Shown here: positions 44,400 to 56,123 of the stretch, piece after piece
How positions within the stretch are numbered: the stretch's first letter is position 1
Layout of the letters: each line of letters starts with the position of its first letter
DNA from: Verrucomicrobiota bacterium
GTDB lineage: Bacteria > Verrucomicrobiota > Verrucomicrobiia > Chthoniobacterales > UBA10450
DNA length: 64,000 bases
Reading direction: 5' to 3'
NCBI GenBank assembly: GCA_003221195.1
Contig: QHQO01000020.1
Coordinates: forward strand, 17,977-81,976
The notes under the pieces: model-generated
Seen by the model: only the letters and a program-made list of their open reading frames with translations
What the model was told of the DNA's origin: nothing
Databases searched by the model: none
Program-made: the position numbers and the translations under genes

Positions 44400-45152
44400 A
44401 TGCATCGCTTCTTCATCTCTCCCGAGAATTGGAATTCTGGCGCCCTCGCATTAGGTGGGTCGGAAGCACATCACGCGCGCGACGTCCTGCGCATGAGGGT
44501 GGGGGAGAAAGTTGTTCTCTTCAACGGACGGGGACGGGAAATCACCGCGGAAATCGTCGATCTTGGCAGCGATGAAATTCGATTGCGAAAATTGCACGAA
44601 GCGGAAGCACCACCGCTTCAATGCCGGATCGTTCTGGGACAGGCAATCCCAAAGGGAAAAAACATGGACTTAATTGTGCAAAAGGCGGTGGAGATCGGCG
44701 CTTCTGAAATCGCGCCGATCATTTCCGATCGCACCATTGTGCATGTTGATTCCAAAAGCGCGGGGCAAAAACAGTCCAAATGGCAGCAGATTGCAGTCGA
44801 GGCGGCCAAACAATGCGGCCAGAACTGGCTGCCGCACGTACATGCGCCTAGAAAGCTTTCAGAATTTCTTTCCGTAGCGCGGGAGAAGCCGTTCGACCTA
44901 CAACTGATCGGCTCGCTTCAGCCGGGCGCGCACCACTTAAAGAAGGTTCTCGCGGACTATTCAAGTGAGCATCAACATCGTCCTGAGAGCGTGTTGATGC
45001 TTGTTGGACCAGAAGGCGATTTCACGCCTGCGGAACTTGCGCTTGCGCGTCGTCACGGCTGCCAGCCAATTACGCTCGGCCCGATCATTCTGCGAGTGGA
45101 AACCGCGGCAATTTATTGCCTGAGCATTCTCTCGTACGAATTGCTGATTTAA
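44400..45152 (+). CDS. rsmE: 16S rRNA (uracil(1498)-N(3))-methyltransferase
   Basis: 250-aa ORF; GGSEAHHARDVLRMRVGE, VGPEGDFTPAELALAR, LGPIILRVETAAIYCLSIL. Confidence 0.95.
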   Translation: MHRFFISPENWNSGALALGGSEAHHARDVLRMRVGEKVVLFNGRGREITAEIVDLGSDEIRLRKLHEAEAPPLQCRIVLGQAIPKGKNMDLIVQKAVEIGASEIAPIISDRTIVHVDSKSAGQKQSKWQQIAVEAAKQCGQNWLPHVHAPRKLSEFLSVAREKPFDLQLIGSLQPGAHHLKKVLADYSSEHQHRPESVLMLVGPEGDFTPAELALARRHGCQPITLGPIILRVETAAIYCLSILSYELLI

Positions 45153-45161
45153 AGCGCGGGT

Positions 45162-47963
45162 TTACGGTTGCGTCTTCTCGTAGAGTTCTCGAAAGCCTGG
45201 ATCGGCACGCAACGAATCCCAAAGGGGATCGAGTCTTAGATATGCCGGCGTAAGAGGCATTGGGCCGTAAAGCTGACTTTGAAATGGTGTTTGCACAAGC
45301 CGCATAAGCGTTGCGATCGCGCTGCTGCTGTCGCCGAAGATCGTCTGGACTAACGCCAGGTTCTCCTCGGTGCCCGGGCCGTCCACTGCATCCTTGGCAC
45401 TTGGTAGAAGCATAGTAGCGCGTTCCGCCTCCTTCAGAGCTAGGTCCTTCTCTCCTAACTCGGCATAAGCCAGAGCCAGCCACTCCGCAAAGTTGGAGTT
45501 ATCCGGTTGTTTTTTGCCGAGCGGCTCCAGCGTGTTGCGCGCCTGTTCGGCTGTAACCTTTGCGCCGGCAGCATCACCGGCAAGGCGCTGAGCAATAGCG
45601 AGGTAAACCTGAGTACCGCCCCTGTAGATCTCAGAAGTGAACTTGAATTGCGCAAGTCGGGTTTGCAGCAATCGAATGGCCTCAGCGTAATTCCGTTCAA
45701 GTCTTAACTGGGTCATCTTAATGAAGAAGGCATTCTCAAATGGAGTGTCCGCGGGTATTTCTGATAAGAGGTTTGCGGCTTGCTCCAGATTTCCCTGGGC
45801 CTGATAACTGCCGGCCTTTAACGACATCAAATCGGGATCATTCGCAATAATATCCGTCGCTTGATCATAACGCGTTAACGCCACCGGGAATTGTCGTAGC
45901 ATGTCATAAGTCCATGCTGAAGTAGTTATTAACTCTCCGTTGCGCGGATCCAGGTCGAGACCTGCCTGGACCGCGGCAAGGCTTTCATTCCAGTTTCCAA
46001 GGCGTCGGTTGACCGCGCTGAGGGCCCATGCGACATCGCTGTTACCTGGCAGGAGCTTGCTGACCAGGCCGAAGGTAGCTTTGGCAAGTGCGTAATCACG
46101 CAGGACCCAGTATTGGTAGTAACCCAGGGCGAGCAGAGTTTCCGGCGAGTTTGGCTGGAGTTTCTGCGCATGTTCCAAAGCATCTTTAGCTAGGTCGGGG
46201 CGCGCGGTGTCAACACGTTGAAAGTAGACGTACGCTTGTGCGCGAGAAAGCCGCGCCCAGGCAAGGGCAAAGTTTGGATCAAGCTGGACCGCGCGCTCGA
46301 AGTATTCGATGCATTTCAGTGCCAGATGAATCGACTGACCAATGCGTGCTTGGAACGCCAGGCCGCGCAAATATGCATCGTAAGCCTCCGGATTATTTGT
46401 CGGTTTAGCTGCCAACGCTTGCTCCTCGTGGCCAGTGAGCTTCGCTTGCAATGCTTCCGCGACGCCTTTGGCGATCTCGCTTTCGACGCTAAAGATGTCA
46501 GTTAGCTTACGATCATAGGTTTCGGCCCAGAGATGGGAATTAGTTCGCGTGTTAAGCAGCTGCACACTAACCCGCACTTGATCGGCTGCTTTTTGGAGGC
46601 TGCCTTCAAGAACATTTGTTACTCCAAGCTGCCTGGCAACCTTGGTAAGATCACTTGGCTTGCTCGGATACCGCTGTGTCGAAGTGCGCGAAATGACTTT
46701 TAGATCGGCGATCTTGACCAGGCGCGTTAGGATTTCCTCCTGAATGCCTTCGGCAAAAGAAGCGTCGTTGGGGTCATGGCTGAGATTTTCAAATGGTAGC
46801 ATGGCGATACTCTTCTCAGGAGTTAAGCTTGCTGTCGGATGTCTGAACCAGTAAAACGCGAGCGCTACAGCCAAAGCGCCGAGCAACACTACTGAGGAGG
46901 CCGTGACTGGGTTACGCAGAGAATTGCTCCGACCCCTCGGCATCACAGTCCCGAAACCTAGTCGTGCCAGGTCGTCGCTAATTTCATTCGCGGTCTGGTA
47001 GCGCTTGCGGAGATCGGTGTCGCACGCTTTGAGGATGATGGAATTCAGCTTAAGAAGGGCTTCGCGCTGCGCCATTGTATCGAAGTCTGGTGGCAAAGCC
47101 GGATAGTCCAGTCGATCGGTGCCAGTGGTCGCTTCGTAGAGCACCATGCCTAGGCTATAAAGATCGGCCTGAGGTTTTCCAGGACCCTCGGGTGGAATGT
47201 ATCCCTCTGTGCCCAGACGCGCTTTCTCCCCAACCTGCGCCACCAGCCCGATATCTGCCAGCTTTGCGTAGCCTTTAACGAAGATGATGTTTGATGGCTT
47301 TATGTCGCGATGCACTAACCCGCGCTGATGCAGCTCCGCGAGCGCCTGGCCAAGCGATAATCCCAGTTGCGCAGCCTGTTCCACGGACAGTCGTTCGCAT
47401 CTTGCTAGCTCATTACTTAACGTTTTCGGCGCATAAGTCTCAGGCTCAATCCCGCCGCCGTTTGAATCATTATCGGCCAATTCCATGACATAGTAGAAAA
47501 AGCCCTCCGCGCGATTGCGAGCAACATGAAGGATCGCCACAAAACCTTCGTGCTCCCGCGACACCGGTTCGAACTGCTGAAGACCCAAAAATTCTCTCTC
47601 AAACGCTTCCTCGTCCTGGAACGCTTTCCGTTCAACGATCTTAACCGCGCGATAAGTGCCCACAATGTTTCGGGCTAGCCATACCTCGCCATAACTGCCC
47701 TGGCCAATGCGGCGCAATAGCTGAAAATCCGGAATGAAAGGAACATCCCGCGCGGGTTCTGCCGTGTTTGCCTGCCCAGTCGTCTCCTCGCGAACACTTT
47801 CGCACTTGTCCGACGAAGGCGGACCTGCCAAGACAGCCTGCTTACGAAGTCTTTCGGAGTAGCCTTCGCGAAGGTGGGCTGTCCGCTCGGTAGTAGCTTT
47901 GCGAAGACGGGCGATCATCCCGCTTGCTCTCGCTAGTGAGCCATTGCTCTCGTGAACCCCCAT
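45162..47963 (-). CDS. Ser/Thr protein kinase with TM segment, FlgO/TolB-N-like domain and TPR repeats
   Basis: 933-aa ORF; GQGSYGEVWLAR, VHRDIKPSN, variant DFG (ADIGLV), TM (ASSVVLLGALAVALAFYWF), SIAMLPFENLSHDPNDASFAEGIQEEILTRL, TPR-rich C-terminus. Confidence 0.92.
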   Translation of the reverse strand: MGVHESNGSLARASGMIARLRKATTERTAHLREGYSERLRKQAVLAGPPSSDKCESVREETTGQANTAEPARDVPFIPDFQLLRRIGQGSYGEVWLARNIVGTYRAVKIVERKAFQDEEAFEREFLGLQQFEPVSREHEGFVAILHVARNRAEGFFYYVMELADNDSNGGGIEPETYAPKTLSNELARCERLSVEQAAQLGLSLGQALAELHQRGLVHRDIKPSNIIFVKGYAKLADIGLVAQVGEKARLGTEGYIPPEGPGKPQADLYSLGMVLYEATTGTDRLDYPALPPDFDTMAQREALLKLNSIILKACDTDLRKRYQTANEISDDLARLGFGTVMPRGRSNSLRNPVTASSVVLLGALAVALAFYWFRHPTASLTPEKSIAMLPFENLSHDPNDASFAEGIQEEILTRLVKIADLKVISRTSTQRYPSKPSDLTKVARQLGVTNVLEGSLQKAADQVRVSVQLLNTRTNSHLWAETYDRKLTDIFSVESEIAKGVAEALQAKLTGHEEQALAAKPTNNPEAYDAYLRGLAFQARIGQSIHLALKCIEYFERAVQLDPNFALAWARLSRAQAYVYFQRVDTARPDLAKDALEHAQKLQPNSPETLLALGYYQYWVLRDYALAKATFGLVSKLLPGNSDVAWALSAVNRRLGNWNESLAAVQAGLDLDPRNGELITTSAWTYDMLRQFPVALTRYDQATDIIANDPDLMSLKAGSYQAQGNLEQAANLLSEIPADTPFENAFFIKMTQLRLERNYAEAIRLLQTRLAQFKFTSEIYRGGTQVYLAIAQRLAGDAAGAKVTAEQARNTLEPLGKKQPDNSNFAEWLALAYAELGEKDLALKEAERATMLLPSAKDAVDGPGTEENLALVQTIFGDSSSAIATLMRLVQTPFQSQLYGPMPLTPAYLRLDPLWDSLRADPGFRELYEKTQP

Positions 47964-48607
47964 CGCTTCTCTTCCTCCTTTTCAAGGCGAGCAACTTCTC
48001 GTCGCATTAACGCGGTAACTCTGTGTTTCGCCAGACGTACCTGAGCGGTGCTCACGCCGAGGGTTTCCGCTACTTTGTCCACAGACCAACTTTTCACAGC
48101 ATACAGATCAAACATCTGGTAATGCCGTGCGTTAGCCTGACGTTTCACACGTGACAATGCGGCGGCGAACAACGTGCGCTGCCATTCCTCCTCCCATACC
48201 GCGTCAAGGTTGATCGCTGCCGGATCAGGAATGCGCTCGAGCGTCGCGGTGCCTGATGTTCTGGTTGCCCGGCGCGCTCCAGAAGAATCGATTTGTTGCT
48301 GGCGTTTGCGAAACTGATCGACGATGCGCCAACGGACTATAGTCAACAGCCAACCCTTAAAAGAGCCAATAGCGGGATCGTAGCGGAAAGACCTGATCTT
48401 CTTTACCACAGTAAGGATTGACTCCTGCACCACCTCTTGCGCCTCCGAATCGGTCAACCCGGCGTTGAGCGCCGTGGCGTAGATCAATCGCCAGTACGTG
48501 TCGAAGAACTCACGCCAGCTTTCCTGAGCGTTCGATTGCTTAAGGCGACTGAGCAGGCTGCGCCGTGTCGCTGAGGATGATTGATTACGCCGTTCTGTCG
48601 AATTCAT
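47933..48607 (-). CDS. RNA polymerase sigma factor, sigma-70/ECF family
   Basis: 224-aa ORF; region 2 (VVQESILTVVKKIRSFRYDPAIGSFKGWLLTIVRWRIVDQFRKR) and region 4 (VDKVAETLGVSTAQVRLAKHRVTALM). Confidence 0.9.
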   Translation of the reverse strand: MNSTERRNQSSSATRRSLLSRLKQSNAQESWREFFDTYWRLIYATALNAGLTDSEAQEVVQESILTVVKKIRSFRYDPAIGSFKGWLLTIVRWRIVDQFRKRQQQIDSSGARRATRTSGTATLERIPDPAAINLDAVWEEEWQRTLFAAALSRVKRQANARHYQMFDLYAVKSWSVDKVAETLGVSTAQVRLAKHRVTALMRREVARLEKEEEKRWGFTRAMAH

Positions 48608-48712
48608 CTTGACACCTCATCATACTCGTCCTGCCGGAGCCGGGTCACGCAAATAAAATGACGCAGGCTAATCCTGTCTGTATTCGCTTCGCGCCAAAGC
48701 ACCTGTTTGCCC

Positions 48713-48748
48713 GCGAATCACGCGAATCACGCGAATGACGCGGATAAT
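48713..48748. repeat. Short 9-bp tandem repeat (GCGAATCAC x3 plus degenerate unit)
   Basis: gcgaatcac gcgaatcac gcgaatgac gcggataat in the gap upstream of the S74 repeat genes. Confidence 0.7.
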
Positions 48749-48886: not shown

Positions 48887-50293
48887 ATGAAAAATCGAAC
48901 CCACATATTCGCAACGATCCTGGTCGGGGTCACGTGCCTTGCACTTTTGCCAATGGCTCAAGCAGTCGTTCCAGCACCCGATGGCGGCTATCCCGGGGGC
49001 AACACGGCAGAAGGGCAGGCCGCCCTCCTTAGTCGCACCACCGGCATTTACAATACGGGTGTTGGCTTGTATTCGCTCCTGAGCCTCACCGACGGCAACT
49101 TCTGCACCGGCGTGGGCGCCGGAGCGTTGCTTGCCAACACCGCCGATGGAAATACGGCCATTGGCGCGGGCGCGCTTTTAACTAATACTAACGGTCAAGG
49201 AAACACGGCCGATGGTGAGTTCGCACTCTTTAACAACAACGGATTCAATAACACCGCCACCGGCGCTGGTGCACTCCAGAATAACACCACCGCTGATTCC
49301 AACACCGCCAATGGTTCCGGCGCTCTCTTTAGCAACACCGAGGGCGAAAACAACACAGCCACCGGCAGTGCTGCGCTCCTTCTCAACACGACTGGCAGCC
49401 GCAATACGGCGACCGGGGCTCAGGCACTCTTTCTTAATACCGCTGACGACAATACGGCCTATGGATATAAGGCTCTCGATAGCAATGCTGGCGGCTTCTT
49501 TAACACAGCGGTTGGAGACGAGGCACTGCAAACTAATATGGGCGGTGGCGGCAACACAGCCGTGGGTTATTTTGCGCTTCATAACAGTACGGGCGGAGGC
49601 AACATTGCAATCGGCGTGGGCGCCGGGACCAACCTTACCGCAGGCAACAACAACATCTACGTCGGCAATGTGGGCGCTCCTGGGGGCGAGTCGAATACGA
49701 CACGTATCGGCATTGCGAAGACGACACAAAACACATTTATCGACGGCATTCACGGGGCGACGATTGATCCCGCAACAGCGCTTGCAGTGGGAGTGGATGC
49801 GAGTGGGAAGTTGGGCACCACTGTCTCGTCGCGCCGCTTCAAGCACGACATCAAACCAATGGACAAAGCCAGCGAAGCCATCCTCGCGCTGAAGCCGGTG
49901 ACCTTCCGCTACAAGAGTGATGCCAAAGATACGCCGCAATTTGGTTTGATTGCCGAGGAAGTCGCCCAAGTTAACCCCGACCTCGCGGTACACGACAAGA
50001 ACGGGGAAATCTTGAGTGTGCACTACGACCAGATCAACGCGATGCTGCTTAACGAGTTCCTCAAAGAGCACCGCAAAGTACAGGAGCAAGAAGCGACCAT
50101 CGGCCGGTTATGGACTGCTGCGGCAAAACAAGACGCAACAACCGCCGAGTTAAAATCGACGGTCGTCCAGCAACAGAAAGGAATGGAAGCTCTCACGGCG
50201 CAGCTCAAAGATCAGGCTGCCCAAATCGAGAAAGTCAGCGCACAGATTTCAGTCAGCAAACCGGCTCCACAAGTCGTGATCAATAATCCGTAA
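48887..50293 (+). CDS. Secreted YadA-head-like repeat protein with C-terminal S74 intramolecular chaperone domain (paralog 1)
   Basis: 468-aa ORF; signal peptide, 16-17-aa GNNTATGxxALxxNT repeats, SSRRFKHDIKPMDKASEAILALKPVTFRYK, coiled-coil tail. Confidence 0.88.
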   Translation: MKNRTHIFATILVGVTCLALLPMAQAVVPAPDGGYPGGNTAEGQAALLSRTTGIYNTGVGLYSLLSLTDGNFCTGVGAGALLANTADGNTAIGAGALLTNTNGQGNTADGEFALFNNNGFNNTATGAGALQNNTTADSNTANGSGALFSNTEGENNTATGSAALLLNTTGSRNTATGAQALFLNTADDNTAYGYKALDSNAGGFFNTAVGDEALQTNMGGGGNTAVGYFALHNSTGGGNIAIGVGAGTNLTAGNNNIYVGNVGAPGGESNTTRIGIAKTTQNTFIDGIHGATIDPATALAVGVDASGKLGTTVSSRRFKHDIKPMDKASEAILALKPVTFRYKSDAKDTPQFGLIAEEVAQVNPDLAVHDKNGEILSVHYDQINAMLLNEFLKEHRKVQEQEATIGRLWTAAAKQDATTAELKSTVVQQQKGMEALTAQLKDQAAQIEKVSAQISVSKPAPQVVINNP

Positions 50294-50322
50294 AACAGCT
50301 CTATAAGAAAGGAAACTAAATC

Positions 50323-52035
50323 ATGAAAAATCGAAACATCACCTGCACAACAATAGCCCTGGCGCTTGGCTTTGTAGCGCTTTGCCCAATGGCGCAAGCA
50401 GTCATTCCAGCACCTGATGGCGGCTATCCTGGAGGCAACACGGCGGAAGGTCAAAGCGCCCTTCTTAGCCGGTCTACTGGGTCGTACAATACGGCCGTCG
50501 GTATCTATTCGCTCCTAAGTCTAACCGAAGGTAACTTCTGCACGGGCGTCGGCGCTGGAACGCTCCTGGCCAACACCGCAGACGAGAACACAGCCACTGG
50601 TGCGGGAGCCCTCTTAACCAACACCATCGGCGACAACAATACTGCCAATGGAGCGTTCGCTCTCTTTAGCAATACACAAGGGGACTTCAACACAGCCCTC
50701 GGTGATCGCGCGCTGTTCGCAAACACCATCGGAGACGGCAACACCGCAGGCGGTCAGCTCGCGCTCAGTAGCAACACCGAGGGGGGCTTCAACAGCGCTT
50801 TCGGTCAGGGAGCGCTAGCGTCCAACACCATAGGCAACGATAACACCGCCAGCGGTGCTGGTGCACTGTTTTTAAACAGCACTGGCAGTGCTAACACGGC
50901 AATTGGTTTTCAGGCGCTCAATGACAACACGGTAGGCGTTGACAATACGGCGATCGGTTTTCAAGCGCTCTTTAGCAACACGGATGGAGACGTCAACACC
51001 GCCACCGGTTTTCAAGCGCTCGCTGTCAACACTACTGGCGACAACAACACCGCGAACGGGTTCCAAGCGCTCTTCTCCAACGATAGTGGCAACAACAACG
51101 TCGCTACCGGTTATCAAGCCCTGGCTCACAACACAATCGGCGAGTTCAACACGGCCGATGGGTTTCAAGGGCTCTTCAACAACACGATTGGCGGCGCCAA
51201 CGTGGCCACCGGTCCTGGCACTCTGTTTCACAACGTCGACGGGGCCGGCAACACGGGCACCGGTGCTAATTTTGTGCTTTATAATAACACTCACGGCACG
51301 GGCAACACAGCGACGGGTGATTTTACGCTCGCTAATAACATTGACGGTAACTATAACACGGCCGAGGGCTGGGCAGCGCTCTATAACAGCGCGAGCGGCA
51401 GCGCGAATACCGCTATCGGTTGGAATGCCGGTCAAGGCGTCACCACGGCCAGCAACGTGATTTGTGTCGGCAAAGACGTTTTAGGTGCTGACGTGAGCGA
51501 CAGCTGCTATATCGGGAACATCCACGGGGCGACCATTGATCCGGCCACTGCCGCTGCAGTGGGAGTCGATGCCACTGGCAAGTTGGGGACGGTAGCCTCA
51601 TCGCGCCGTTTCAAGCACGATATCAAACCGATGGACGATGCCAGCGAAGCTATCCTGGCGCTCAAGCCAGTGACCTTCCACTACAAGAGCGACGCGAAAA
51701 GCACGCCCTGCTTTGGTTTGATCGCCGAGGAGGTGGCCCAAGTGAATCGGGACCTGGTCCTGCGCGATAAGAAGGGCGAAATCTTGACCGTCCGCTACGA
51801 CCAGGTGAATGCGATGTTGCTTAACGAATTTCTCAAAGAACACAAGAAAGTCGAAGAACAGCAATCGACGATCACGCAACTGAAGAACAATTTCCAGGTC
51901 GCCAGCGCTGAGCAACAGAAGGAAATCGAGCTCTTGACAGCCCAAGTTAAGGAGCAGGCCGCACAAATCCAAAAGGTAAGCGCCCAAATCGAGGTCAGCA
52001 GGTCCACCCCACAGGTGGTTACAAACAAACCATAA
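50323..52035 (+). CDS. Secreted repeat protein with C-terminal S74 chaperone domain (paralog 2)
   Basis: 570-aa ORF; same N-terminus (PAPDGGYPGGNTAEGQSALLS), more repeats, SSRRFKHDIKPMDDASEAILALKPVTFHYK. Confidence 0.88.
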   Translation: MKNRNITCTTIALALGFVALCPMAQAVIPAPDGGYPGGNTAEGQSALLSRSTGSYNTAVGIYSLLSLTEGNFCTGVGAGTLLANTADENTATGAGALLTNTIGDNNTANGAFALFSNTQGDFNTALGDRALFANTIGDGNTAGGQLALSSNTEGGFNSAFGQGALASNTIGNDNTASGAGALFLNSTGSANTAIGFQALNDNTVGVDNTAIGFQALFSNTDGDVNTATGFQALAVNTTGDNNTANGFQALFSNDSGNNNVATGYQALAHNTIGEFNTADGFQGLFNNTIGGANVATGPGTLFHNVDGAGNTGTGANFVLYNNTHGTGNTATGDFTLANNIDGNYNTAEGWAALYNSASGSANTAIGWNAGQGVTTASNVICVGKDVLGADVSDSCYIGNIHGATIDPATAAAVGVDATGKLGTVASSRRFKHDIKPMDDASEAILALKPVTFHYKSDAKSTPCFGLIAEEVAQVNRDLVLRDKKGEILTVRYDQVNAMLLNEFLKEHKKVEEQQSTITQLKNNFQVASAEQQKEIELLTAQVKEQAAQIQKVSAQIEVSRSTPQVVTNKP

Positions 52036-52081
52036 CGCTATCAAGGTGGTAATAAAGTGAAATCAGAACGGAAATTAGAAT

Positions 52082-53941
52082 ATGAAGAACCAAAACATGA
52101 CAAATAGATTCACAACAGTGCTCTTTGCGCTTGGCTTCTCTGCGCTTTTGCCAATCGCTCAAGCGGTGATGCCAGCACCCGACGGAGGGTATCCCGGTGG
52201 CAACACAGCAGAGGGAACCAGCGCGCTTTTGAGCAGTAGCACCGGCGCATATAACACGGCAATCGGGATATATTCGCTCCTAAGCCTCACTGACGGCAAG
52301 TTCTGCACGGGTGTCGGCGCCGGGACGCTCCTCGCTAACACCGGAGATGGAAACACTGCCACCGGCGCCGGCGCGCTTTTGAGCAACATCAGCGGTACCG
52401 GCAACACTGCCAGCGGGACGTTCGCTCTCTTTTTTAATACAGATGGTGTCGATAACACAGCCACCGGTTTTCGAGCGCTTATGAGCAATACCGGTGTTGA
52501 GAATACTGCAAACGGTTCTGTTGCGCTTCAGAGCAACACCACGGGCGAGGCCAACACAGCGGTTGGTTCGGCAGCGCTCTTCCTCAACACAGAGGGCAGC
52601 GGCAATACGGCCACCGGTGCTTCTGCGCTCTTTGCCAACGAGATCGGCAACTTCAACACAGCCGTTGGTGATGAAGCGCTCTTGAGCAACACCACCGGCG
52701 AAAACAACACAGCCGTTGGAGCGGGTGCCCTTTTGACCAGCGCCACCGGCACCCGCAACGTGGCTGTCGGTTATCAAGCGCTCTTGAACAACACCAACAG
52801 CGATAATACGGCCACCGGTTATCAAGCGCTCTCGAACAACACCACTGGCAACTTCAACTTGGCCAACGGTGTTCAAGCACTCTTTTCGAACACCATGGGC
52901 ACCCAGAACACGGCCAATGGCGCCGTCGCGCTCGCCAACAACACCACCGGCAGCGACAACACCGCCACCGGTGCGAGTGCGCTTCTTTTTAATACAAGCG
53001 GCTCCAACAATACAGCCTCCGGATTTCAGGCGCTCCTTAGCAATGACACCGGCAACTTCAACACGGCCGACGGTGCTCTCGCGCTGTTCAGCAACATCAG
53101 CGGCGGCGACAACGTCGCTACTGGTCGGCAGGCCCTCAATCACAATATAACAGGCGGCAGTAATGTCGCATTAGGTGCTAGTACACTTTTTAACAATACA
53201 GCCGGCCACGACAACGTGGCTGTCGGTTTTCAAGCGCTCTTGAACAACACCGGCAATGGTAACATCGCATTGGGGAGCTCTGCCGGCTTCAATCTCACCA
53301 CGGGTAGTAGCAATATCGATATCGGCGCGCCTGGCATGGCTGGCGAGTCCGGTACCCTGCGCATCGGTTTTAGCCAGTTTCAGACCTTTATCGCGGCAAT
53401 CAGTGGGGTACCCGTTACAGGCACACCAGTTGTTGTAGATGCGTTCGGTCAACTGGGCGTGGCACCCTCCGCGCAGCGTTTCAAGGACAAGATCAAGCCG
53501 ATGGACAAGGCAAGTGAAGCGATCCTGGCGCTCAAACCGGTCACTTTCTGTTACAAGAAGGAGATTGATCCCAATGGCATTCCGCAGTTTGGCCTTGTGG
53601 CTGAGGAGGTGGCAAAAGTGAATCCCAATCTCGTCGCTCGCGACGCCAAAGGCGAGGTTTACACGGTACGTTACGACGCAGTGAACGCGATGTTGCTTAA
53701 TGAGTTTCTTAAAGAGCACAAGGCGTTCCTCGAGGAGCAGCATAAGGTTCAGGAACAAGAAGTGATGATTATTCGGCTAAAGTCGACTGTTGAAAATCAG
53801 GAGGCGACTGCCGCGCAACAGCAGAATGAAATTCAAGCGCTAACCGCAAACCTCAAAGAGCAAGCTGTGCAAATTCAGAAGGTAAGCGCGCAGATTGAAG
53901 CGAACAAGACCGTGACCAAGATGGTTAGCAATACACCGTAG
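52082..53941 (+). CDS. Secreted repeat protein with C-terminal S74 chaperone domain (paralog 3)
   Basis: 619-aa ORF; same N-terminus, longest repeat tract, APSAQRFKDKIKPMDKASEAILALKPVTFCYK. Confidence 0.88.
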   Translation: MKNQNMTNRFTTVLFALGFSALLPIAQAVMPAPDGGYPGGNTAEGTSALLSSSTGAYNTAIGIYSLLSLTDGKFCTGVGAGTLLANTGDGNTATGAGALLSNISGTGNTASGTFALFFNTDGVDNTATGFRALMSNTGVENTANGSVALQSNTTGEANTAVGSAALFLNTEGSGNTATGASALFANEIGNFNTAVGDEALLSNTTGENNTAVGAGALLTSATGTRNVAVGYQALLNNTNSDNTATGYQALSNNTTGNFNLANGVQALFSNTMGTQNTANGAVALANNTTGSDNTATGASALLFNTSGSNNTASGFQALLSNDTGNFNTADGALALFSNISGGDNVATGRQALNHNITGGSNVALGASTLFNNTAGHDNVAVGFQALLNNTGNGNIALGSSAGFNLTTGSSNIDIGAPGMAGESGTLRIGFSQFQTFIAAISGVPVTGTPVVVDAFGQLGVAPSAQRFKDKIKPMDKASEAILALKPVTFCYKKEIDPNGIPQFGLVAEEVAKVNPNLVARDAKGEVYTVRYDAVNAMLLNEFLKEHKAFLEEQHKVQEQEVMIIRLKSTVENQEATAAQQQNEIQALTANLKEQAVQIQKVSAQIEANKTVTKMVSNTP

Positions 53942-54227: not shown

Positions 54228-56123
54228 CTACTCCGCCATGGCTGCTTCGACAGTCGATCCGCTGGGAAGAGTAGGGGGCGGCGCCGTTTGATCCGGCGGC
54301 GCGGGCTGGATTGAAACGATCGCAAATTGAGCGGTGCCGTGTTCTGTGTTTAGGGAAATAGTTTCGCCGGCTTTATGACCGAGCAACGCCTGGCCGATGG
54401 CGGTTTGATACGAGATGATGTTATGATCGGGATCACCGTCCCATGCGCCGAGAATGGTGTAGGTTTCCTCCTTGCCCGTCTCCACGTTGCATAGCGTGAC
54501 AATTGTGCCGATGGAAACACGCGACGTATCAACATTTTCAAATGAAGTCCCGCGCGCGTTGTGTAGCATTTGTTCCAGCTCGGTTTTTCGTCGCATCAGG
54601 ACGCTTTGCATCTGCTTGGCCGCTTTAAATTCAAAATTTTCGCTCAGATCGCCATACGATCTCGCGAGCGCGATCTCTCTGGTATTCTCTGGAATTTTCG
54701 TCTTGACCAGCTCTTCGTATTCGGCCTTGCGTCTTTCCAGGCTGCTCCATGAAACGATCAGTGGCCCGGTTTCGTCCTCAGATTGCGCGCCTGTGATCAT
54801 GCTTTCCAGTTCTGGATAAACTTTGACGAGTCTGGCCAGAAGCGAGCGTTTCGTCAGCTCATCGAACAGGTGGCTTAGTTGTAGCCGCCGCATCCAATCG
54901 CGCGCGGTAGCGACGTCGCTTTTCCTGAAGATGTCCCCAAGCAGTTGCCGATCTTCGACCAGTGTGCGGTACAACTTGCCGGTCCGACCGGCGGTATTGT
55001 GTTGTTCGCGCTCCAGCGCCGCGAAAATTGCGCCAAGCAACTCCTGCGTCACCAGTTCGTTCCATTGCTCCCGCTCGCTACAAAGCCAGGCAAGCATCTC
55101 GCTCGTTGCTGAATGTTCCCGGATGCTCCGTTCCAGCATCGTCCGAAGCTCGTCGTGCTTACCACCTTCGCTTAAGATGCGGGGAATTTGCGCAACCATG
55201 CGGCCGTGACTTTGTTGCATCAAATCCAAGCCACGTTCTGTCCAGCGCGGACCGAGCGCGGTCGGCAACGCTTGCAAGATTCGTTTTTCTTTTGCGGCCG
55301 GCAATTTTTGCAAGACCGATATCAGGCGCTCCTCTTCATCAAGAATCAGTTTCGAAAGCGTCAAACCCACATGGGTCGAATGCAGCGAGGCGAGGCGCTC
55401 GAGCAAATCGTCGCGCACGATAACCAGGTCAAACGCAAACTCCGGATGCATTTTCTGGTTGCGCACCGTCATGTTCTCAATCGTCGCGATGATCGGCTGA
55501 AGTTGTTTTTCGGGCTCCCTGAATTGCTGGTGCGATTTTACGATCTGCTCGAGCGCTGCGATTTGTTCTTTTGGCTGCCGCGCCTTGTTAAAAGTGTCGA
55601 GCAGTTCGTCAGCGTACGACACGCCCTCGCCGCGAATTTGAATTGGATCGGTCTTTTTAGAAGGCACGGAAAAAGCGCCGCTTGCCTTGAGCGCTTTCTT
55701 CGTTGATTCCCACCAGCGCTTCCATTCAGTCTCTGTAAAAACATCGCCAATCAGCCATTCACTGATCTGCTGCGCCGTGCCTTTACCGTCCAAACTTTCA
55801 AGAATATTTCGCACCAGCGCAGGCGGATTTTCTCTTGCCAAACTCTTGATCGACGTCAGGTCGGTCGCTTTGCGCGCGAGGAAGTGCTCTGGCGCCAGCG
55901 GCGTGACGTTCTCCGCCGCGTACTCGGCCTGCATCGGATGCGATTTTTTGCCTGCAAAATCAATTACGATCTGGTTGAGCAGCAGGTTCCAGTCGCTCAC
56001 GCGACCGAATCCCCAGCTTTTATGCAGACAAAATGTGCCCGGCTTTAGTTTTTCGAGTTTTTGCGCGGCGCGGGGAGTAAGTTTGCCAGCTTCGACCAGT
56101 TTTTCTAATTCTGTATCCATCAA
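54228..56123 (-). CDS. greA: Long GreA/GreB-type transcription elongation factor with N-terminal extension
   Basis: 631-aa ORF; C-terminal ALARSYGDLSENFEFKAAKQMQSVLMRRKTELEQML and YTILGAWDGDPDHNIISYQTAIGQALLGHKAGETI; about 450-aa N-terminal extension. Confidence 0.88.
   Translation of the reverse strand: MMDTELEKLVEAGKLTPRAAQKLEKLKPGTFCLHKSWGFGRVSDWNLLLNQIVIDFAGKKSHPMQAEYAAENVTPLAPEHFLARKATDLTSIKSLARENPPALVRNILESLDGKGTAQQISEWLIGDVFTETEWKRWWESTKKALKASGAFSVPSKKTDPIQIRGEGVSYADELLDTFNKARQPKEQIAALEQIVKSHQQFREPEKQLQPIIATIENMTVRNQKMHPEFAFDLVIVRDDLLERLASLHSTHVGLTLSKLILDEEERLISVLQKLPAAKEKRILQALPTALGPRWTERGLDLMQQSHGRMVAQIPRILSEGGKHDELRTMLERSIREHSATSEMLAWLCSEREQWNELVTQELLGAIFAALEREQHNTAGRTGKLYRTLVEDRQLLGDIFRKSDVATARDWMRRLQLSHLFDELTKRSLLARLVKVYPELESMITGAQSEDETGPLIVSWSSLERRKAEYEELVKTKIPENTREIALARSYGDLSENFEFKAAKQMQSVLMRRKTELEQMLHNARGTSFENVDTSRVSIGTIVTLCNVETGKEETYTILGAWDGDPDHNIISYQTAIGQALLGHKAGETISLNTEHGTAQFAIVSIQPAPPDQTAPPPTLPSGSTVEAAMAE

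Follow-up and report, generated by a model that had tools for sequence, protein, structure and literature searches.

A tandem trio of probable S74-chaperoned fibre genes belongs to a large and variable gene family in a soil genus of Verrucomicrobiota

Three adjacent genes in a verrucomicrobial genome probably encode Sec-exported trimeric surface fibres with an S74 domain serving as chaperone and self-releasing protease, likely adhesive and diversified both in shaft length and by exchange of tip and chaperone. In the mechanism that we propose, each chain would be exported from the cytoplasm by means of its signal peptide, the S74 domain and a coiled coil would assemble three chains and fold their beta-solenoid shaft, and a Ser-Lys dyad would cleave before a conserved serine, thereby releasing the chaperone and exposing the short adjacent stretch as the tip of the fibre. 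The job of such fibres is likely adhesion to cells or surfaces in soil, and the genus would have retained many copies, often in tandem, that diverged through shaft length and through exchange of tip and chaperone as one module. Fibres with S74 domains have already been described in phages and in a predatory bacterium, and the protein type itself is not new. In this genus it makes up a family with as many as 30 members in a genome, and shafts and tips appear to have been reshuffled between species.

The genes lie in a window of 64,000 nucleotides, the whole stretch of DNA that was analysed, which belongs to a metagenome-assembled genome (MAG) of 276 contigs and 87% completeness. All are on the + strand, together spanning positions 48887-53941 with intergenic gaps of 29 and 46 bp, and comprise the following features:

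48887-50293, +, fibre gene 1: 468 aa, signal peptide 1-26, repeats 39-238, pre-S74 stretch 239-313, S74 from S314 (dyad S314/K319), coiled coil 380-457
49001-49600, +, shaft of 17-aa repeats of gene 1 (protein reading, AlphaFold2)
49601-49825, +, stretch of gene 1 from the last repeat to the cut site, candidate mature tip
49826-50290, +, S74 chaperone/protease and coiled coil of gene 1 (Pfam, alignment, AlphaFold2)
50323-52035, +, fibre gene 2: 570 aa, repeats 39-361, S74 from S426 (SSRRFK)
50437-51405, +, shaft of 17-aa repeats of gene 2 (protein reading; AlphaFold2)
51406-51597, +, stretch of gene 2 from the last repeat to the cut site, candidate tip
51598-52032, +, S74 and coiled coil of gene 2 (Pfam, alignment)
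52082-53941, +, fibre gene 3: 619 aa, repeats 41-393, S74 from S463 (SAQRFK)
52202-53260, +, shaft of 17-aa repeats of gene 3 (protein reading)
53261-53467, +, stretch of gene 3 from the last repeat to the cut site, candidate tip, apparently of another type than in gene 3 of a sister species
53468-53938, +, S74 and coiled coil of gene 3 (Pfam, alignment)

The initial annotation had described three adjacent same-strand genes sharing a signal peptide and a starting motif, 16-17-residue repeats that increase in number from the first gene to the third, an S74 module and a coiled-coil tail, and this outline was borne out. The three open reading frames are present, each begins with a signal-peptide-like stretch (a basic, hydrophobic N-terminus up to AQA, recognised by eye rather than by a predictor), and the motif PAPDGGYPGGNTAEG can be read in all three N-terminal regions. 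The shafts follow the 17-residue consensus GxxALxxNTxGxxNTAxG, with units of 16-17 aa and 13, 20 and 23 NTAxG-type anchors in genes 1, 2 and 3 respectively, and in each protein a short repeat-free stretch separates shaft and S74 domain. Peptidase_S74 (PF13884) matched the three proteins with 52.5, 45.4 and 38.1 bits (E 6e-14, 1e-11 and 2e-9), all above the curated Pfam cut-off of 22 bits. The trio proteins have neither a recognisable membrane anchor nor a recognisable sorting signal, and the fibre may be freely secreted rather than cell-attached. Beyond the coiled coil, a C-terminal tail (QIQKVSAQLExxKPAPQVVxNxP-like) is conserved in many of 94 relatives, although it would be expected to depart along with the S74 chaperone.

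The catalytic residues of the S74 domain are strictly conserved, S314 and K319 (gene 1 numbering) being invariant in 46 of 46 aligned full-length proteins of the genus. In the trio the dyad has the spacing S-x4-K, with the two residues five positions apart, and the residue following the catalytic serine is Ser or Ala, so that the Asp of the SDxxxK motif of Bdellovibrio MAT fibres is replaced while Ser and Lys are kept. Mutation of the equivalent S587/K592 abolishes cleavage of MyRF, these positions corresponding to S911/K916 of endoNF (PMC8326128), and cleavage of Bdellovibrio Bd3182 is blocked by S782A (PMC10769870). Because the dyad is invariant and the equivalent residues of MyRF and Bd3182 are needed for cleavage, the trio proteins likely self-cleave at the S74 domain. 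The fibres are also probably trimeric.

An AlphaFold2 monomer model of the gene 1 protein, built with 45 relatives, showed a confident solenoid over most of the length of the shaft (pLDDT ~90) and low confidence in the S74 region, as expected when an intertwined trimer is folded as a monomer. The helix predicted at residues 380-457 accounts for the coiled-coil tail and matches the C-terminal trimerisation-helix feature of the S74/ICA family. The gene 2 shaft, modelled alone, reached a mean pLDDT of 84, its strands recurring at intervals of ~17 residues. Together with the Pfam matches and the signal-like starts, these models agree with the earlier description of S74 chaperones ending exported beta-solenoid proteins. 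The repeats had also been likened to YadA heads, and that reading fails, since up to E 10 the shafts are matched by no head family of Pfam and by no other Pfam family convincingly; Pfam thus lacks a model for the 17-residue shaft, and solved structures offer no convincing counterpart either. At profile level the S74 part weakly resembles 6f45, a phage long tail fibre of solved structure (E 8e-4), a Foldseek search of the full model against the PDB returned nothing significant, and leucine-rich repeat matches of the shaft alone to solved structures had large rmsd and were judged to be solenoid artefacts.

Among predicted viral proteins (BFVD), by contrast with the solved structures, the gene 1 shaft model found fibre-like matches with E-values down to 5e-11, one example being a viral fibre aligned over 187 columns at 43% identity and an rmsd of 1.3 A. 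Proteins of giant viruses (Bodo saltans virus, Marseillevirus) are predicted to form the same shaft solenoid, and the matches to the gene 1 model include an S74 protein of Tupanvirus. All three proteins are matched by PHROGs families of virion structural and tail proteins, and relatives are encoded in 107 phage records, as would be the case if the trio were left over from a prophage, a tailocin or some other particle of phage origin, with virion tail-fibre genes staying behind in the chromosome. Such an origin is nevertheless highly improbable: all three proteins have signal-peptide-like starts, paralogues are numerous and scattered over many sites across the genus, similar proteins with signal-like starts occur in MAGs of Bacteroidota and Armatimonadota, and, as had been claimed at the outset, the scanned proteins of the window revealed no phage genes, those neighbours of the trio that were scanned being cellular and including no phage structural genes.

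Those neighbours delimit a genomic island, which lies between an RsmE-like and a GreA-domain gene and contains a kinase-TPR gene, an ECF-like sigma factor gene and the trio:

44400-45152, +, RsmE-like rRNA methyltransferase, left border of the island
45162-47963, -, Ser/Thr kinase with TPR repeats, in the island
47933-48607, -, ECF-like sigma factor, in the island and divergent from the trio
54228-56123, -, GreA/GreB-domain protein, right border of the island

The border genes are directly adjacent in 18 congeners, which therefore display the empty site. A second genome, G017, shows the order RsmE, kinase, ECF and first fibre gene up to the end of its contig, and in the sister genome G016 the fibre genes adjoin the GreA-domain gene on a contig that ends before the left border. 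In a tree of RsmE both island carriers tested sit among empty-site relatives, so that gain and loss of the island are not distinguishable. The sigma factor and kinase were considered as dedicated regulators of the fibres and rejected as such: homologous pairs elsewhere in the genus (L160-L169) face an unrelated divergent gene (MNTSxLITRALQLAARPF...) instead of fibres, which leaves a regulatory link unsupported, and the association appears to be one of shared island residence only. A promoter scan gave results at chance level. Between the sigma factor and fibre gene 1 lies a 9-bp tandem repeat, CGCGAATCA, in 3.4 copies (48712-48742). The GreA/GreB domain ends a 631-aa protein with a long N-terminal extension (54228-56123) that has strong matches in 32 of the 35 genomes of the genus, and at positions 54-1580 of the window there is a homologue of LMF1, a lipase maturation factor.

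The trio belongs to a family that is widespread in its genus. S74 domains occur in 33 of 35 genomes, far above chance, and on proteins of trio-like architecture; they were found at 0-30 places per genome (median 5), counts that are lower bounds because the genomes are incomplete and that rise with genome size (rho 0.64). The paralogues occupy many sites, and same-strand tandem arrays of 2-4 S74 fibre genes are common. In a sample of the phylum, any S74 domain was present in 37 of 289 genomes, mostly at 1-3 places. Proteins with repeats, S74 and signal-like starts also exist in Bacteroidota, Armatimonadota and other MAGs; it is therefore not the architecture but the copy number that is special to the genus. 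Relatives in named records came from the AV-series of soil MAGs of Verrucomicrobia, including a 7268-base AV47 contig with the same fibre sequence as the G016 contig. The literature that was searched contained no description of such fibres in Verrucomicrobia.

Across 45 proteins of the family the distance from the mature start to the cut site varies widely (147-430 residues), and the stretch preceding the cut is the least conserved part, with a median identity of 48% vs 59% for the N-terminus and 61% for S74. Similarity in the N-terminal part is uncorrelated with similarity in S74 (Mantel r 0.03, p ~0.32), whereas similarity in the pre-S74 stretch and in S74 are correlated (Mantel r 0.33, p 0.001). 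These data bear on a second alternative, a secreted scaffold or matrix protein (sheath, S-layer or exopolysaccharide-binding fibre) in which the shaft would be the functional part and S74 would do nothing but fold it. It would suit proteins consisting mostly of a repeat shaft of such variable length, in which no catalytic or lectin domain was detected; the low conservation of the pre-cut stretch is, however, what a recognition tip would show, and the many paralogues per genome also speak against a scaffold. We regard a purely structural role as unlikely and favour adhesive fibres with a variable tip.

The sister genome offers a view of how the locus changes. In this comparison (REARRANGEMENT), the flank beside the trio is 95.7% identical between G016 and the window over 3897 bp with one gap, and the GreA-domain protein is 97% identical, whereas the fibre genes align in pieces at 67-89%, with deletions in the repeat region. 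Window by window, the first ~810 bp of G016 gene 3 are mostly like gene 3 of the trio (89-95%), the exception being one junction window at a deletion; from ~990 bp onwards the closer resemblance is to genes 1 and 2 (73-85%), identity to gene 3 being lower (68-74%), and the last coiled-coil part is close to none of the three. A search of the relatives' DNA gave the same picture, with a shaft 93.8% identical to that of gene 3 and a C-terminus whose best match is gene 2 of the window (82%), followed by gene 2 of G016 itself (78%), against ~70% to gene 3; the C-terminus of the window's own gene 3 is closest to copies from other species (~73-75%). An orthologous shaft (94%) thus appears to be joined to a different tip and S74 module in the sister species, a mismatch that rests on one pair of fragmented MAGs and for which recombination would be the cause. 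A separate ancestry of the S74 domains was not upheld, since a single clade for those of the trio and of the sister was not rejected (AU test, p 0.276). Genes 2 and 3 of G016 (L212, 4049-7142) carry frameshifts in the repeat region, which could reflect decay, real variation or MAG assembly error.

The differences between the sister species might themselves be artefacts of assembling repeats from metagenomes. Both genomes are fragmented MAGs, the sister copy has the two frameshifts, and contigs often end inside fibre genes; even so, a divergence of 18-30% separates the swapped C-terminus both from those G000 copies that were available and from gene 2 of the same genome, so that it does not represent a simple collapse of near-identical copies, and shaft-length variation and the missing correlation between N-terminus and S74 recur over 45 proteins. 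An artefact accordingly seems improbable to us. We give similarly little credence to recombination-driven antigenic or phage-receptor variation, in which the array would be its own store of cassettes and tip exchange would be selected for evasion of phages or grazers: tandem arrays in many congeners, the module mismatch at one orthologous locus and hypervariable genes between conserved flanks speak for it, but neither a recombinase nor an invertible element nor any silent partial cassette was recognised, and the comparison that shows the exchange is one of species, not of members of a population. The locus had been called expanding or phase-variable in the initial annotation. Expansion is supported by the 0-30 S74 places, the tandem arrays and the repeat deletions and rearrangement relative to the sister species; phase variation by slippage is unsupported, since the repeat units are diverged (69-78% matches in TRF) and no suitable simple-sequence tract was reported in the genes. 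Neither the module mismatch nor the genomic island nor the extent of the family across the genus had been noticed in that annotation.

It is conceivable, and we put it forward only tentatively, that the genus maintains a large repertoire for surface recognition, built by recombining conserved shafts with exchangeable tip and chaperone modules, S74 being a self-removing folding unit that makes tip swaps safe and the arrays a store of diversity. That a soil genus has so large and variable a family of S74 fibre genes gives a hint of how the Verrucomicrobia of soil, which are poorly studied, may interact with other cells, and makes it possible to test whether S74 modules serve as portable folding cassettes.

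Several known systems share parts of this architecture. YadA-head trimeric autotransporters have in common with the trio the idea of a trimeric fibre, a beta solenoid of short repeats and a coiled coil, but the trio has neither a YadA_head match nor a YadA-type anchor match and ends instead in a chaperone (S74 and coiled coil). The chaperones of phage endosialidases, of the T5 L-shaped tail fibre and of the GA-1 neck appendage (S74, ICA) share the domain family, the catalytic dyad and the C-terminal position of the domain, whereas the trio has signal peptides, forms a chromosomal multigene family and is accompanied by no phage genes that were seen. The ICA domain of MyRF (PMC8326128) shares the dyad and a C-terminal triple coiled coil, in a eukaryotic membrane-bound transcription factor. 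Closest are the MAT fibres of Bdellovibrio bacteriovorus, S74 subgroup (e.g. Bd3182), which likewise combine a signal peptide with a beta-rich fibre that terminates in an S74 domain bearing a Ser/Lys motif (PMC10769870) and form a multigene family with a conserved start and a variable end. Compared by description, MATs have an N-terminal beta domain of ~130 aa after the signal peptide, whereas in the trio the 17-aa repeats start ~12 residues after it; we do not file the trio as MATs because its repeats (from residue 39-41) directly follow the signal peptide. The motif also differs (SDxxxK in MATs, SSxRFK or SAQRFK in the trio), and 13 S74 members in strain HD100 compare with tandem arrays of 2-4 and up to 30 places per genome here. 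The Bdellovibrio S74 fibres have signal peptides, self-cleave and are surface-exposed, and an exchange of shafts and tips was suggested in the discussion of that work (PMC10769870); the sister genomes compared here appear to catch such an exchange at an orthologous locus, and the trio fibres probably work like the S74-subgroup MAT fibres.
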